Shown here piece after piece: positions 3,329 to 10,189 of a stretch of 64,000 nt of DNA (within the stretch, counting starts at the first letter, position 1; each line of letters starts with the position of its first letter). Both the position numbers and the translations under genes were made by a program. The stretch is from the NCBI GenBank assembly GCA_020347565.1, contig CP070732.1:1288688-1352687 (forward strand), in the 5' to 3' direction. The stretch is from Methanobacteriota archaeon (GTDB lineage: Archaea > Thermoplasmatota > Thermoplasmata > UBA10834). The notes beneath the pieces were generated by a model. It saw only the letters and a program-made list of their open reading frames with translations, was not told where the DNA came from and made no database searches.

Positions 3329-3997
3329 CTACTCCAAGCCGGCGTCGATGATCTCGTACACGCCCGTGTGGCACGATACGCGTTTCTCCGCGCGTTTGAT
3401 GGAAATCGAGGAGCTGAAGTTCGGGCCATCAGTGACGAAAGTCTCGATCTCGCCTCCTTCGCCGGAGACGCTGAAGCCATGCTCTTCCCCAAGGTCGCAC
3501 AGTTCGGAGAATGCATCATCGTCGATCTCGCGACCGAGCCATGCCTCGTCAAGCCCTTCGGCGTAAGTTCCGGAGACGATGATCCTGAATCCTGCCTTGA
3601 GCATGTCCTCGAATATCGCTCTCTGATCCTTCCTCCACAGCGGTGAGAACAGCGGTTTGTCGAGACGATCGCATAATTCGTTGAGACGAGACCACTGGTA
3701 GTCTGAAGCGATGGCTCCTGAGACGAAGCCGTCGACGTCTTCCTTCGCCATCAGCCGCTCCAGGTCCACCAGTTCGATATCCTGGTCGCCGTCGCTCTGA
3801 GTCGTTCTGATGTCCATCCGGAGGGCATCCGCCTGCATCCTCGTCCAATTGATGTTCGGGTAGTGATACATATATGAATCGTTCCTGCTCGGAATCACGG
3901 TCAGGAGGCTCGCGATTTCCCACCCCTGTTGCTGAAGCAGGTACGTAGCGTACGTCGAATCCTTTCCGCCTGAGAAGAGCGCCGAGACCTTCACCAT
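3329..3997 (-). CDS. Dph6-like diphthine--ammonia ligase (PP-loop ATPase)
   Basis: N-terminal PP-loop motif SGGKDSTYA (residues 9-17) identifies an adenine-nucleotide alpha-hydrolase of the MJ0570/Dph6 family, which amidates diphthine on elongation factor 2. Conserved GAIASDYQWSR and the later GEGGEIETFVTDGP, where the ligase motif lies, fit this family. 222 residues is the usual archaeal length. It converges on kamA with only 3 nt between the two stops, both of which are TAG. Confidence 0.88.
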   Translation of the reverse strand: MVKVSALFSGGKDSTYATYLLQQQGWEIASLLTVIPSRNDSYMYHYPNINWTRMQADALRMDIRTTQSDGDQDIELVDLERLMAKEDVDGFVSGAIASDYQWSRLNELCDRLDKPLFSPLWRKDQRAIFEDMLKAGFRIIVSGTYAEGLDEAWLGREIDDDAFSELCDLGEEHGFSVSGEGGEIETFVTDGPNFSSSISIKRAEKRVSCHTGVYEIIDAGLE

Positions 3998-4037: not shown

Positions 4038-5609
4038 TCAGGTGTTGAGCGCCAGAACTGTCACCAGCAGCACCGCCCCTGACAGGAAGACGACGATCGG
4101 GAGCTTGTACATCCACATCTCGTCGAATACCATTCTGGCCCCCAAGTAGCCGAACGGCAACATCACAACCAGTTCAAAGGCCCCAGCAACTAGAGCGCCG
4201 CCAGCGATAAGCGTTGCCGCCATCAGAACGAGGCCAAAGGCCGCGACAAGTGGAACTGCCGCTCCGAGCATTTCCCCGAGCTCGCAGCCGGCCACTATTG
4301 TCTGTGCTATCCTAAGCGACACAAGGAAGATGCCCACGGAGACTATGACGCCAGCGGCAGCGAAGTCCCCGGTGCTGGCGCACTCGGGCAGCAAGACGAC
4401 CGGAGTCAGGAATAGAAGGTACGATCCGAAGGCCGTCGCGGTTCCAAGCTTGGCTTCGTTGCCTTCGATGTCCTCGAACCTGGTTAATCCAAGGAGCGCC
4501 CCCCCCAACATGCCCAGGAACGGCACTGTGCTGACCTTTAGCTCGCCGAACTCCTCCGTGAACATGATTGTGACTCCTATCAGGACGAGGAAGAGGCCAA
4601 CGGTGAAAAGGAATTCGCCCCTCAGCTGCGATGCGGAAAGCGCTATCCCGTAGAATCCGAAAACGACGCCTGCAAACAGCGGAAGAACGACGAGAGCTTC
4701 GTCCCACAGGTCGATGTCTATCACAAACAGATGCCATGAGGCTATCAACAGGAAGCCGAAGAGAAGGGAGAAGAGCAGAGTACCAGCGGGTGTGGGCCTC
4801 CTATCGGGCTTCTCCTTCCTCCTGAGGCTGTCCGGCGAGTCTGTCAATAAGAAGACCACACCGGCGATCGCGACAATGACAAGGGCAATGATGATGAAAC
4901 ATAGTGAGTTCAGGTGAATCGCGAAGTAGATGCCAGCGATTGTGATTACGACTGCGAATGCGTAAACCCAGCCTGGGTACCTTCTCCTTGCTGAAGCCCT
5001 GTTCTCAAGGACAGGAGAGATCTTGTATGGCCTGCCACAGCCCGGACAATCGAATGCAACCTGGTCATCCCGGTAAGTGTTCTCGACTTCCATCCGCTTC
5101 TGGCAGGTGGGACAGAAGACTGGAATGAGTCTGCTGGTGGATTCCGAGAGTATATTGATTTCGTCTCTTACCACACCTCCCTTGTCCAATTGCAATATCA
5201 CCGACGACAGTGGAACCCCTCTCGAGGCTACTATGTCCGCGATCTTGCGATTCTCTGCTCCGTCCTCCCCTTCGTACATCACGGAGCGTCCAACGAAGCC
5301 TACCCTTATCTCATCGGCTTTGCGGGCGCCCTCTTCCGTAAGGAAGTATGCATTCTGTCTCCTGTCCTCTCCTTCGATGTGGCCTTTATGGACGGTGACT
5401 CTCCCTTCCCTCACAAGGTTCTGGAGGGCCGAGGCGACGTGGCTTCTCCTCAGCCCGAGGTAATCGGCGAGGCCCTTCTGTGTTATCTCGAAAGGGAGAG
5501 GTGCGTCGTCTGGTTCGGTGCGATGCTCTCCGAGTTGCAGTAGCACCTTCTCCTTGGCCTTTAGGCCCGTGTTGCCCTTATCCCCGTTCGTCGCCGCCAG
5601 TTCGACCAC
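4038..5609 (-). CDS. membrane-bound winged-helix protein with zinc ribbon
   Basis: 523 residues in three parts. Residues about 15-110 look like a winged helix (KGLADYLGLRRSHVASALQNLVREGRV as recognition region, then a wing). Residues about 165-200 form a zinc ribbon with CPTC and CPGC. From about residue 215 to the end there are some ten or eleven hydrophobic helices. This is the layout of a membrane-tethered one-component regulator: cytoplasmic DNA-binding head and membrane sensor. It begins 54 nt after the alpha-2-macroglobulin stop on the same strand, so the two are probably co-transcribed. The ligand and target are unknown; I do not recognise a named family for the membrane part. Confidence 0.85.
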   Translation of the reverse strand: MVELAATNGDKGNTGLKAKEKVLLQLGEHRTEPDDAPLPFEITQKGLADYLGLRRSHVASALQNLVREGRVTVHKGHIEGEDRRQNAYFLTEEGARKADEIRVGFVGRSVMYEGEDGAENRKIADIVASRGVPLSSVILQLDKGGVVRDEINILSESTSRLIPVFCPTCQKRMEVENTYRDDQVAFDCPGCGRPYKISPVLENRASARRRYPGWVYAFAVVITIAGIYFAIHLNSLCFIIIALVIVAIAGVVFLLTDSPDSLRRKEKPDRRPTPAGTLLFSLLFGFLLIASWHLFVIDIDLWDEALVVLPLFAGVVFGFYGIALSASQLRGEFLFTVGLFLVLIGVTIMFTEEFGELKVSTVPFLGMLGGALLGLTRFEDIEGNEAKLGTATAFGSYLLFLTPVVLLPECASTGDFAAAGVIVSVGIFLVSLRIAQTIVAGCELGEMLGAAVPLVAAFGLVLMAATLIAGGALVAGAFELVVMLPFGYLGARMVFDEMWMYKLPIVVFLSGAVLLVTVLALNT

Positions 5610-5663
5610 CCCTCCACACCGGTAATGTGAACCCCGGAGTTAACTCTTATCAGAGCGGGCGGC

Positions 5664-8600
5664 TCACGTTACCTCGAACTCTACCGGCAGGGTCTCGCTC
5701 CAGAGACCATCAGGGTCGTACATGTCCCACGCGTCTATCCCCTGGACTGTGCTCTTTATGGGCATCTCCGCCACCAACGAATAGTCGAACTCCACTGGGA
5801 CGCCTGATTCCACGTCTGTCAGGTACACCACGACCTGTCTATCGTTCGTGTCGAAGGAAGATATGACCCCGGATGATCTGAGCGACTCGAACTCGGCTGG
5901 CACGAACGCCAAGCCCATCGGCGCCCGGAGGTCGACCAGTATCATCTTGATGACCGCCAGTGGGCCGTCGTACATGAGATAGAGGTGGGCCGTAACCGTG
6001 TCAGTCACGCTTATCTCGGTGACGTCGTACGTTACCGTCAGAACGAGATCTTCGGACCCCTGTGGCTCGTCAGGCCACGGAACGAACTGCTCCAGGTAGA
6101 TGGAGTACAGCACGGATCCGATGCCAGTGCACTGGACCTCGACCTCAGAGACGTTTGTCAGGAACGGCCTGAGGTCGACGAGGAAGGTCACATCGCTCTG
6201 GAACTCATCAATCGCCAGGGACGCGACTTCCTCGCCGTTCACAGACACTTCGACGGTCACATTCTCGATGGTGTTGCGATCCGCGATGTCTCTCAACGCG
6301 TGAAACGCCACCACGGTGTCCTGCGTCGAACTCCAACCACCGAGCGCTCCCCGGTTGTTGAGAAGGTACCTTATCGCCCCTTCGACCGACAGTACGTGGC
6401 CAATTATCCCCGAGAGCGCCATCGCCGCATATCCGGTCGTCTCTATCACCCTCGTTCCTCGGCTGAAGGTGCTGGTGTCCGATATCAGGCTGGTGGAAGA
6501 GGTCCAGTAGCAGGTGTTTCCATCTTCCATCTTCAGCTCCTCTAGCTGGTCCGCGATGCTCGCCTTCAGTCCGGCGTCGCCGTCCGACGCCTTCAGCAAC
6601 AGGAGGGAGAGGGAGAGGCTGAACGGGTCGTCCCAGACTTCGTGGGCATTTGCCTCGATATAATCCACGGCCTTCGTCATGTGCGGGTCCGTGCCAGGAA
6701 CTCCTGAGTGCAGCAGTGCCCTGGCGATGTACCCGGTCGCGGCTATCTCCTTCGATCTGAGCAGGGGATTATTGAACTCGTAGATGCCCCAGTCGGGGAA
6801 CTCCCAGGAGCCATCGTCGTTCTGGATGGACATCAGCCAGGACTGCATGTCCGCGATGATGTCCTCATCGAGACCGAAGCCAGCGTTGATGGCGTCCTGG
6901 AACGCTATCAGGCCCCACGACGTAAGCCACGGATGGACATCCCGATCTCCCGGGAACCACACGATGCCTCGTCCCTCGCCGTTCTTCGCGTCGACCAGGT
7001 ACATCAGCTCGTGCTGTATCCCCTGATTGACGATGCTCTCGTATGTGAACATCTTCTCGGGAGTGGCCCCGATCCTCATGACCGTGTCGTAGGCGAGTAT
7101 GTCGATCGACAGCATCGAGAGCGACTGCTCCCCGCATCCGGAAACATGTCTGATGAACTCGTCGACCCCCTCTAGGAACACCGCGTCGATGCCACCCTGG
7201 ATCTTCACCCATGCGTTCTCGCTGCCCTCGACCCTGTCAGCGCTGAGCAGTAGCGTCTCAACGACGCTGTCATTGCACAACTCTCCGTTGTACAGCGTTT
7301 CCACCTTCGTGCCGTCAGGGTCGATCTTGATCGGTCTGACGACGGCGTCCGAAGCCTCGGGCGATTCGGCGTACACGGTGACAGTGTGCCAGCCGACCTT
7401 GTCAGCGATTATGGTGAAGGACACTGAAGAGACGTAGTTGGCGGGAACGACGATGCTCTGGATCTGGTTCGAGACGAGTTCGAACCAGGGTTCGTCCACG
7501 AGCGTGATGTTCACCGTCTGTGTGGTGTTGAGGTAGTTGTAGACGATGACGCTGAGCGGAAACTCATCGCCTCTCACGACAGAAGTGGGCACGTTCGGCT
7601 CGACGAAGAACGGCTGGAAGACCGTGACCGATGTGGAACCCGTTCCCACGACTCCGTCAGAGGTCGACGCTACCACATCCACCTTCCAAGAGGTGATGGA
7701 ATCAGGCGCAGTCAGGGAGACACTCGCTAGGCCGCCATCGTCCGTGACGAGGCACGGGGTCCAGTACCATGTCTCCGGGAAGTACTGTCTCACGATGGTT
7801 GGCTTGGACAGCGGTGAATCCTGCGCGTCGGAAGTGTAGTCTCCATAGGCGGTGTCTTTGGGCCCGAGCACCAGAGGCGATCCATCGGCCATCAGGAATT
7901 CTTCCGTCAGTTCGTCCTTCAACGTATCGCGTGGCATCAAAGGCACTGGCGAAGAGCCTGACGTGCCGAAGCCAGAGATCATCATGTACCCGCCTACCAC
8001 TGCGGCCCCACCACTGGCGATCACCAACACCAGGACTACGGCCACAGTCGCGGATCCGCGTCTCTTGGAGCTGACGCGCGGCCTGACAAGCGCGATCGCC
8101 ATGACGCCGAGGCATAGATACATGGAATACCAGAAGCCTCTGATGGCGTCCTCCTTCAGCTCCGACGCCTCGAGCACGTTGCTGGGCCAGGTGCTGGCCA
8201 TCCTCGCATCGTCCAACTCGGAGACGACGCTCTCCGTTTCGGACGGCAGGCTTCCGGATCCCGTGTAGACGTACGTCAGTAACTGGTACTGTGGCTCGAT
8301 GAACGCTTCATCGAGCCCGAAGATGATCTCCTCGAAGCCCGAGAACATGCTCCCCACTTCGTAGACTGCCTCGTCGACGACTGAGATGCCGAGCGCTGCG
8401 ATCACCGGCTCGTCGTACCGCAGCACGGACATCTCCAAGCCGACAGCGTCTCGCGGTCCGTAGACGTCCTCTTCGACTGAGACATCCACGCTCAGAACGT
8501 TCGAAGAGCCAACGCCGAAGGTTACTGCATCTCGGATGACGCGCATGTCCTTCTCGATCTTGTAAACCCTGACCTGGGCGAAGGGCTCCATGTCGGGGGT

Positions 8601-10106
8601 CATGGCGACGGACACCGTGGCCACGCCCCCTGAGAGTTGGGCGACTCCTCGATCCACGACATAGCCCCTTGATACCACATCATAATAGACGTTCGTGGTG
8701 AAGGACTGCCCGGAGTAGAATATCTGGAACGAGCCTACCTCTCCCACATCGTAGTACGCCTTGTCGGAGACCACTTTCAGGCCAGATATGTCCGAAAGGT
8801 CGACGTATACAGCGTTGCGACGGGACCCCGGCTCACAGAACATGACTGCTGTCTCGCCCTGATACGTGAACCTGAACTTGGCGACTCCGCGTGAGTCTGT
8901 GGAGTTGCTTCCAATATACCTCCTGTCGTCATCAATGTAAAGATAGGCGCCGATCGAGTAGTCGGCGAGAGGGGCTCCGTTCGGAGTCCGTGCTATGACA
9001 TTGAACTCCGAGACGTATCCGGGGACGCAGCTGTCCGTCAGGACTGAGAGTACGACTGAGCTGGGGGCGATGGCGATGACCTTCGAACGAGTCTCGACAT
9101 GGCCGCCCGTGTCTTCTACCGTGAAGTTCACCTGCAGGTAGCCGTTGCCTCCGGTCTCGGTGAGTCCGACTGTATAGGTCACCGCCGGCAATGTGAATCC
9201 GAACTCTCCGCCCTCAAGCGTTCCGTCCGTGGAATAGAACGGGGTCCAGACGCCCAAGTAGAGGTTGGCCTCTATCGACACCGTGCCCTCGACGACCTTC
9301 CCGAAGAAGTACTCAGCCGATACGACGCCGGAAATGGATCTACCAACCTCGTACCAGTCGTCAAGGCCCAGGACGTCGACCCTGAACTTAGGCAGGACGT
9401 ATTCCTTCACGATCACCGCCTTGGTCTGGACGTCATCGTCCACGGTCGCGCTGATCGTATATGTCCCTTGGATGAGCTGGTCCGAGAGGGCGAAGTCATA
9501 GGATACGATTCCGAACTCGTTCGGTGTGAGGAGCTTCTTGAATATCTTGTCCCCGTTCGGGTCGACGACCTCCAACAGGACATCCGATTCCTGAGGAAGC
9601 GGGTTGGTGCCGGCATAGGTCAGTGCCCTCATGTGAATGACCTGGCCAGGCTGGTAGATCGGCTTGTCGGTGGTGATTATGGTCCTGATGGTGTTGTCGA
9701 GAACGGTCCCCGTCTCGGTCCTCTCCGGGCCCGATTCGACGATGATCTTCGCCTTGCCAGTGCCTGATGGTATGCTCAGGACAGGGGCGGCCATTCCTGC
9801 CGAGTCTGTTCTGCCAGACCAGACCTGTTCGGCCACGTCATCCTTCTCTAAGTACACCTCGACGTGCTCGTTGGCGAGGGGAGTACCGTCTTCGTCTATC
9901 GTCATCACAAGGATCGATACGTCCTGACCGGCGAGCACTCTGTCAGGCGCGTATGCTACGAGATTGAATTTGCTCGATAGGTAGGAGTCGTCAAGGCTGT
10001 ATACCATCACGCCAACCGCGCTCAGGACCACGGCTGCAATGAAGATCGGCACGAGTCCCTTCTCCGTCCGGAACGTCCTCGGATATCTTGCCCTCACCTT
10101 CCGCAT
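5664..10106 (-). CDS. alpha-2-macroglobulin family protein, thioester-containing, membrane-anchored
   Basis: 1480 residues. The thioester motif GCGEQ is present with Cys991 and Gln994, followed by an alpha/alpha-toroid thioester domain (about 970-1290) and a C-terminal receptor-binding-like domain. The first 950 residues are repeated beta-sandwich MG domains (for example TDKPIYQPGQVIHMRAL near residue 145, an MG-type signature). Residues about 18-36 are an N-terminal anchor. Unusually, residues about 655-712 form a membrane hairpin with a basic loop (RPRVSSKRR) between two helices, near where the bait region would fall. Family members trap proteases by covalent thioester linkage outside the cell. 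Transcribed divergently from the zinc-ribbon gene and probably with the winged-helix membrane protein downstream. Confidence 0.93.
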   Translation of the reverse strand: MRKVRARYPRTFRTEKGLVPIFIAAVVLSAVGVMVYSLDDSYLSSKFNLVAYAPDRVLAGQDVSILVMTIDEDGTPLANEHVEVYLEKDDVAEQVWSGRTDSAGMAAPVLSIPSGTGKAKIIVESGPERTETGTVLDNTIRTIITTDKPIYQPGQVIHMRALTYAGTNPLPQESDVLLEVVDPNGDKIFKKLLTPNEFGIVSYDFALSDQLIQGTYTISATVDDDVQTKAVIVKEYVLPKFRVDVLGLDDWYEVGRSISGVVSAEYFFGKVVEGTVSIEANLYLGVWTPFYSTDGTLEGGEFGFTLPAVTYTVGLTETGGNGYLQVNFTVEDTGGHVETRSKVIAIAPSSVVLSVLTDSCVPGYVSEFNVIARTPNGAPLADYSIGAYLYIDDDRRYIGSNSTDSRGVAKFRFTYQGETAVMFCEPGSRRNAVYVDLSDISGLKVVSDKAYYDVGEVGSFQIFYSGQSFTTNVYYDVVSRGYVVDRGVAQLSGGVATVSVAMTPDMEPFAQVRVYKIEKDMRVIRDAVTFGVGSSNVLSVDVSVEEDVYGPRDAVGLEMSVLRYDEPVIAALGISVVDEAVYEVGSMFSGFEEIIFGLDEAFIEPQYQLLTYVYTGSGSLPSETESVVSELDDARMASTWPSNVLEASELKEDAIRGFWYSMYLCLGVMAIALVRPRVSSKRRGSATVAVVLVLVIASGGAAVVGGYMMISGFGTSGSSPVPLMPRDTLKDELTEEFLMADGSPLVLGPKDTAYGDYTSDAQDSPLSKPTIVRQYFPETWYWTPCLVTDDGGLASVSLTAPDSITSWKVDVVASTSDGVVGTGSTSVTVFQPFFVEPNVPTSVVRGDEFPLSVIVYNYLNTTQTVNITLVDEPWFELVSNQIQSIVVPANYVSSVSFTIIADKVGWHTVTVYAESPEASDAVVRPIKIDPDGTKVETLYNGELCNDSVVETLLLSADRVEGSENAWVKIQGGIDAVFLEGVDEFIRHVSGCGEQSLSMLSIDILAYDTVMRIGATPEKMFTYESIVNQGIQHELMYLVDAKNGEGRGIVWFPGDRDVHPWLTSWGLIAFQDAINAGFGLDEDIIADMQSWLMSIQNDDGSWEFPDWGIYEFNNPLLRSKEIAATGYIARALLHSGVPGTDPHMTKAVDYIEANAHEVWDDPFSLSLSLLLLKASDGDAGLKASIADQLEELKMEDGNTCYWTSSTSLISDTSTFSRGTRVIETTGYAAMALSGIIGHVLSVEGAIRYLLNNRGALGGWSSTQDTVVAFHALRDIADRNTIENVTVEVSVNGEEVASLAIDEFQSDVTFLVDLRPFLTNVSEVEVQCTGIGSVLYSIYLEQFVPWPDEPQGSEDLVLTVTYDVTEISVTDTVTAHLYLMYDGPLAVIKMILVDLRAPMGLAFVPAEFESLRSSGVISSFDTNDRQVVVYLTDVESGVPVEFDYSLVAEMPIKSTVQGIDAWDMYDPDGLWSETLPVEFEVT

Positions 10107-10153: not shown

Positions 10154-10159
10154 GGCGGT

Positions 10160-10189
10160 TGACATGTCAAGATGTCATGTGGCATGTCA
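10160..10189. promoter_or_regulatory. TGTCA repeat array, candidate operator
   Basis: Three TGTCA elements begin at 10165, 10173 and 10185. The first is part of the perfect palindrome TGACATGTCA (10160-10169). The first and third (both CATGTCA) are 20 bp apart, two helical turns. The array sits between the divergent alpha-2-macroglobulin and zinc-ribbon promoters, so a regulator bound here could control both. Confidence 0.45.

Follow-up and report, generated by a model that had tools for sequence, protein, structure and literature searches.

A predicted membrane hairpin within the bait-bearing insert of a Thermoplasmatota alpha-2-macroglobulin, and the membrane-bound winged-helix protein that accompanies it

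The 64,000-nt stretch of contig CP070732.1 analyzed here (the window, part of a 1.97-Mb Thermoplasmatota genome) carries two neighboring genes on its reverse strand, which encode a large alpha-2-macroglobulin (A2M) and a membrane-bound winged-helix protein that we call the partner. The A2M gene (10106-5664) specifies an A2M/TEP-family protein of 1480 amino acids (aa), assigned by Pfam, phmmer and Foldseek, and the partner gene, which begins with GTG (5609-4038), specifies 523 aa, assigned by Pfam and AlphaFold2. An original prediction, made from the sequence alone, had described these two open reading frames on one strand with a spacing of 54 nt, and the coordinates are as it gave them. The A2M gene is the only A2M_BRD match of its genome (Pfam), and its nearest relative, from a Thermoplasmata archaeon, is 60% identical. 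Features of the two proteins are given below as residues and window positions, all on the reverse strand; source loci are labeled L and genomes G, with G000 for the window's own genome.

By sequence and by predicted fold, the 1480-aa protein is a metazoan-type A2M. Pfam finds, all above the cut-off, MG2, MG3, A2M_BRD (MG5 and the first part of MG6; residues 443-583; 8358..8780), A2M (779-869), TED (978-1271; 6294..7175; TED_complement, E 1.3e-28) and the C-terminal receptor-binding domain A2M_recep (1387-1453), which is the canonical domain order of the A2M/thioester-protein family. The top phmmer match is CD109 (E 3.4e-62), and the closest solved structures by sequence are those of CD109, A2ML1 and human A2M. 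An AlphaFold2 model, which was built from 17 homologues and ends at residue 960, is nearest in fold to active CD109 (top Foldseek match, E 2.3e-49 over 947 columns), complement proteins and A2ML1, with the E. coli A2M at rank 50. The thioester motif GCGEQ (7125..7139), with its cysteine at residue 991, is GCGEQS in 17 of 17 homologues. Near the place of the catalytic histidine of C3 and CD109, the thioester domain occurs in two subtypes, one with “VGHWSI” and one with “WGLYE” or a similar sequence. The window protein belongs to the latter (residues about 1101-1115; 6762-6806), and the motifs suggest that the subtypes may differ in thioester chemistry.

Hydropathy identifies three hydrophobic segments in the protein (residues 17-35, about 655-676 and 683-712), and the model has helices at 18-36, 640-678 and 684-713, so that both methods bear out the N-terminal anchor and the two mid-protein membrane helices of the original prediction. 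The anchor comprises residues 17-36 (9999..10058) and is preceded by a basic N-terminus. The mid-protein hairpin consists of helix 1 (649-677; 8076..8162), a basic loop, RVSSKRR (678-684; 8055..8075), and helix 2 (685-712; 7971..8054), and it follows a variable, LNK-like stretch (584-648; 8163..8357), for which the flank at residues 591-648 has a mean pairwise identity of about 19% and lengths of 30-71. Summed over 17 homologues, the loop contains 46 K/R versus 4 D/E, compared to 33/55 and 8/26 in the two outer flanks. By the positive-inside rule, this excess places the loop in the cytoplasm, which is the orientation originally proposed. The loop has 4-19 residues, counted between 19-residue hydropathy windows, and the helices themselves are poorly conserved (17-18% identity). 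A GYFG glycine motif in helix 1 is frequent, yet it is not universal and was discarded as a general feature.

The position of the hairpin corresponds to the bait-bearing insert of MG6. Residues 617 and 695 of CD109 align with residues 581 and 760 of the window protein, and the bait of CD109 lies at 651-683 (PMC7960916); in A2ML1, LNK and bait form a single MG6 insert (PMC9156758). The hairpin and the linker that follows it therefore fill the LNK/bait insert, where the original prediction had put the hairpin merely close to a bait region. The predicted helices, together with a predicted local distance difference score (pLDDT) below 50 for residues 699-766, place residues 655-712 outside the folded domains. 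Among Thermoplasmatota A2Ms, the hairpin is kept in all 19 genomes in which this stretch has been sequenced (17 with an alignable region, a fragment in G435, and G034 across an assembly gap; the region is unsequenced in G423, which is outside the count). It occupies the identical place in every homologue that covers the region, which is more than chance would give. One A2M that appeared to consist of a C-terminal half only (L040) proved to be interrupted by an assembly gap, with N's upstream and, ahead of the start of the reading frame, an in-frame hairpin helix 1. In G162, a single-contig genome, the A2M gene is split, its pieces (L045 8714-11638 and L046 7489-8952) lying some 0.86 Mb from each other, which is either a rearrangement or a misassembly.

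Directly beyond the hairpin is a putative bait linker (residues 713-770; 7797..7970). Residues 713-768 are G/P/D-rich, vary in length from 44 to 94 and have a mean pairwise identity of 9.8%, compared to 52% for the adjoining MG7, and the linker matches the bait end of CD109 and A2M in alignment. It leads into a trigger motif, VRQYFPETWYW (772-782; 7761..7793), in which R773 and F776 are invariant in 17 sequences. In the alignment they fall on the VRxxFPETW of human A2M, and they correspond to Arg730 and Phe733 of A2ML1, whose relocation is proposed to draw in what remains of the bait and to set off the conformational change (PMC9156758). The invariant R773 and F776, along with the invariant thioester motif, indicate that the trigger apparatus is conserved, and the analogy suggests that the linker is cleaved.

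The phylum also contains a second, larger type of A2M (1900-2520 aa; L079, L081, L082, L083 and L084), in which the hairpin is absent. A hydrophobic segment stands at the C-terminus of four of these five, and the fifth, L079, runs off its contig. In the tree, the large A2Ms form a clade of their own (support 100/100), and the promoter palindrome described below was not found in their upstream regions. Both types occur together in three genomes (G403, G414 and G464).

The partner combines a DNA-binding domain with a large membrane domain. Its winged helix (residues 18-105; 5295..5558) is an HTH_Crp_2 domain (Pfam, E 3.5e-8) that is confidently modeled, and for which MarR/PadR-type winged helices head the Foldseek matches (probability 1.00, but E about 0.03). 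A zinc-ribbon-like region follows (160-200; 5010..5132), which has two CxxC motifs, is weak in the model, and is present as CxxC..CxxC in 8 of 13 homologues. The membrane domain (213-522; 4044..4973) has 11 predicted helices. The winged helix and the ribbon, at least as a ribbon-like stretch, thus stand as originally described, and the count of about ten helices becomes 11. With HTH_Crp_2 and 11 predicted helices, the protein has the architecture of a transmembrane transcription regulator. The winged helix itself is a widely shared DNA-binding module by sequence: its profile matches 162 of 200 genomes of the class, mostly in the first ~150 positions, and the domain is common throughout the phylum, where it is often fused to STAND-like ATPases. 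In the window's own genome, a winged helix of the partner type precedes STAND-like ATPases at L088, L089 and L090.

Because the winged helix alone is so widespread, a partner was counted only when the match reached into the membrane domain. By this measure, the full-length partner is found in 17 of 20 genomes with a hairpin A2M and in 1 of 261 others (Fisher p 2.8e-23, a value that overstates independence since the genomes are related). G021, where a contig end carries an N-terminal piece of an A2M gene and no full partner is present, was scored as negative; scored as positive, it would change the first figure to 17/21. The partner adjoins the A2M gene, as its downstream neighbor, in 14 genomes. 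The pairing and the hairpin are both conserved, and the structure prediction leaves residues 655-712 outside folded domains; neither of the two outcomes named as refuting the original prediction was seen. A DUF2330 gene lies between the two genes in G034, and in G162 the partner follows the C-terminal piece of the split A2M gene. In a sample of 200 genomes of the class, the partner is present in 11 and in G040, where the contig breaks off within the partner gene just past that of the A2M, and 11 of these 12 genomes have a hairpin A2M. The sole exception, G044, has the partner and no detectable A2M, with a tandem palindrome ~570 nt upstream of the partner, and looks like a site of A2M loss. Outside the class, the partner is adjacent to the A2M gene in G404, G418 and G423 and unlinked in G403, G414 and G464, and it was found in none of 73 genomes of other classes that have no hairpin A2M (three of which have just the large type). 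The distances of A2M and partner are correlated (Mantel r 0.745; 0 of 10000 permutations), part of which could reflect shared genome ancestry alone.

Several other genes were noted at these loci. Surface proteins with Beta_propel (PF09826) or DUF2330 stand beside the A2M gene in G464 and G034, and one of this type stands beside the unlinked partner in G414, with two ACATGT sites between (L016 12844-18505; L040 6390-7430; L147 1730-4825); these are possible further members of the system. In G564, where the usual partner is absent, a convergent gene directly after the A2M gene encodes a 181-aa protein that joins an ArsR-type winged helix to two membrane helices (L073 5612-6157), possibly a replacement and possibly a coincidence. 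Upstream of the orphan partner in G044 is a 238-aa protein with six helices and the sequence FFEELAK (L131 7858-8574), which has no Pfam match and which we take to be reminiscent of PrsW-type membrane proteases.

A palindrome, TTKACATGTMAA, which was not part of the original prediction, precedes the hairpin-A2M genes, often in tandem and often immediately 5' of a TATA-like box. In the window, the candidate operator TTGACATGTCAA (10159..10170, no strand assigned), with the core ACATGT, is accompanied 20 nt away by a second, imperfect copy, TGGCATGTCA (10180..10189). The site is conserved at the orthologous locus L037, which has a similar tandem (4419-4447; window tandem, 10159-10189), and others are at L015 3102-3129 and, in G044, L131 7790-7810. 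Of the 16 regions upstream of A2M genes, 13 contain the core (in shuffled sequence, 1.1 on average and at most 5), and ACATGT is the most frequent of all hexamers in these regions. Across the genome, the 10-mer has a background frequency (G000 has 3 sites, versus 2 for the reversed control), and the tandem pattern occurs once in the 1.97 Mb. The 458 kb of collected loci contain 12 copies of the 10-mer, of which all except one stand at A2M promoters or at the site in G044. With a conserved palindrome before the A2M gene, it is plausible that this gene is under transcriptional control, and the partner is the leading candidate for the protein that binds the palindrome. ACATGT also occurs within 300 nt upstream of the partner at 9 of 13 loci, but this was rejected as an operator, as it is coding sequence (conserved DMY codons at the A2M C-terminus).

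Taken together, these features make it rather likely, in our view, that the locus encodes a membrane-pinned, bait-triggered surface A2M with a dedicated membrane-bound transcription regulator. Sequence and models place the A2M at the membrane by two points, the N-terminal anchor and the hairpin in the MG6 insert, whose short basic loop is cytoplasmic, with MG1-MG6 and, after the disordered, hypervariable linker and the R..F trigger, MG7, the thioester domain and the receptor-binding domain all outside the cell. A foreign or stray protease would cut the exposed linker (713-770) just beyond the membrane, the R773/F776 segment would retract as in A2ML1, and the thioester would be exposed and would couple covalently to the protease or to a nearby surface. 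Bait cleavage, thioester exposure and covalent capture are here modeled on the mechanism of A2ML1 and CD109. Given the topology, the hairpin remains on the N-terminal part when the cut falls beyond helix 2; the hairpin would retain the cut end, and the complex would accordingly stay on the cell. Lacking any membrane helix, the C-terminal part would be held only by contact with the N-terminal part or by its covalent catch. The partner would be embedded in the membrane, present its winged helix to the cytoplasm, most probably bind the palindrome before the A2M gene, and adjust expression of the system. The co-occurrence suggests a protease-triggered surface defense with its own control protein, and it is in keeping with this that the hairpin-less A2Ms are a separate clade with no palindrome and that the partner tracks the hairpin A2M alone.

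Several observations weigh against this model. The A2M is rare and patchy, with a thioester-domain match in 13 of 400 genomes of the class. When the partner was searched by fold and by sequence, its membrane domain yielded neither a relative nor a known fold. The palindrome also precedes the A2M gene in G104, where the full-length partner was not found; given how common the winged-helix domain is in these genomes, another winged-helix protein might bind it.

Among the alternatives, there is a real, if less than even, chance that the hairpin is an extra anchor only, and that the partner senses some other cue (membrane stress, a ligand or a metal) and controls the A2M as an effector. The loop is short and featureless, those A2Ms of the phylum that lack the hairpin have a membrane segment at the C-terminus instead, which implies that an anchor is required anyway, and multi-helix transmembrane transcription regulators exist (PMC10269533). 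However, a simple anchor would not have to occupy the bait insert of every member, and that a single membrane domain co-occurs so strictly with hairpin A2Ms points to a tighter connection.

Direct protease sensing, the idea of the original prediction and a stronger form of the favored model, is a reading that we regard as doubtful. Here bait cleavage or thioester coupling would alter the hairpin, which would contact the membrane domain of the partner and switch its winged helix, so that the promoter is informed in one step: a “protease alarm” in which the bait-tied hairpin reports its own cleavage to a membrane regulator acting at a dedicated palindrome. The hairpin is at the bait insert in all members, the partner is co-inherited with the hairpin type and never with hairpin-less A2Ms, A2M and partner diverge in a correlated way, and the palindrome at the A2M promoter is conserved. 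Yet with a loop of about 4-19 residues, the hairpin could scarcely signal alone, and it could act only through helix-helix contact, for instance with the partner, or through intramembrane proteolysis. At 17-18% identity, its helices show no clear contact surface, and the partner is unlinked in three genomes. The hairpin is also retained in G104 and G564, where the partner was not detected, which gives it a role independent of the partner. A reading of bait cleavage by the partner through the hairpin is speculative.

It is unlikely, in turn, that the protein is a tagger like complement or the TEPs, which instead of trapping proteases would couple to competing cells, to viruses or to symbionts. 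Its fold is about equally near to complement proteins and to CD109, the thioester is conserved, and immune or conflict roles have been proposed for archaeal A2Ms by Makarova et al. 2021 (PMC8416519). But neither an anaphylatoxin-like domain nor a convertase was seen, the trigger region resembles a bait linker, and PADLOC-DB gave no defense-model match for the A2M or for the partner. Finally, homologues come mostly from metagenome-assembled genomes and some loci are split or gapped (L040, L045/L046, L078), but functionally unlinked neighbors or an assembly artifact are extremely improbable, as the architecture is identical in 19 genomes across families and classes, with the partner in 17 and in only 1 of 261 controls, and every assembly would have to be chimeric.

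A Diphthami_syn_2 (diphthamide-synthase-like) gene follows the partner in four loci, always on the strand of the partner (window 3329-3997; L037 10750-11412; L044 7324-7992; L046 5029-5667). A scan for bacterial promoters and terminators gave nothing above shuffled sequence, and such a scan has little meaning for an archaeon. The viral contigs searched held no relatives, and matches in the plasmid search were limited to weak Deinococcus/Meiothermus A2Ms.

Of known systems, human CD109 is most similar to the window A2M: it is a cell-surface A2M with a thioester, the best match in both sequence and structure, and its bait is cut by the membrane-bound meprin beta (PMC7960916). It differs in its C-terminal glycosylphosphatidylinositol anchor and in having neither a hairpin in the bait insert nor a partner regulator. 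A2ML1, A2M and complement C3 share the LNK and bait as one MG6 insert and the conserved Arg and Phe trigger residues, but are soluble and have no hairpin. The E. coli A2M (ECAM, type I bacterial) is likewise a membrane-associated thioester A2M, although its similarity is far weaker; it has a lipoprotein anchor and a different domain set. Archaeal surface A2Ms with a thioester domain have been described by Makarova et al. 2021 (PMC8416519), mainly from Halobacteria and Methanomicrobia, as candidates for conflict or immunity, and the main text has no Thermoplasmatota and mentions no hairpin and no winged-helix membrane partner of this kind. Transmembrane transcription regulators are a known class (PMC10269533), with membrane-bound examples in Sulfolobus (PMC6396743), and resemble the partner in joining a DNA-binding domain to membrane helices in one protein. 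Most are single-pass, however, whereas the partner has ~11 helices, in many members also a zinc ribbon, and is encoded next to an A2M. In the open-licence literature, we found nothing relevant on A2Ms with Thermoplasmatota or a transmembrane hairpin, and no report of an A2M hairpin, winged-helix partner or palindrome, though other work may exist.

Archaeal A2Ms are thus already known, and what appears new here is the hairpin architecture, the pairing with the partner and the promoter palindrome. Archaea have a metazoan-type thioester protein with a bait-insert hairpin architecture that is absent from the literature searched, and its phyletic pattern links it to a single membrane regulator and a single palindrome at the promoter. 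The question of what archaeal A2Ms do becomes testable, at the level of where the protein is cut, how it lies in the membrane and which operator controls it. If the link is functional, archaea would possess, in compact form, an equivalent of surface immunity in the style of complement, with transcriptional feedback built in.

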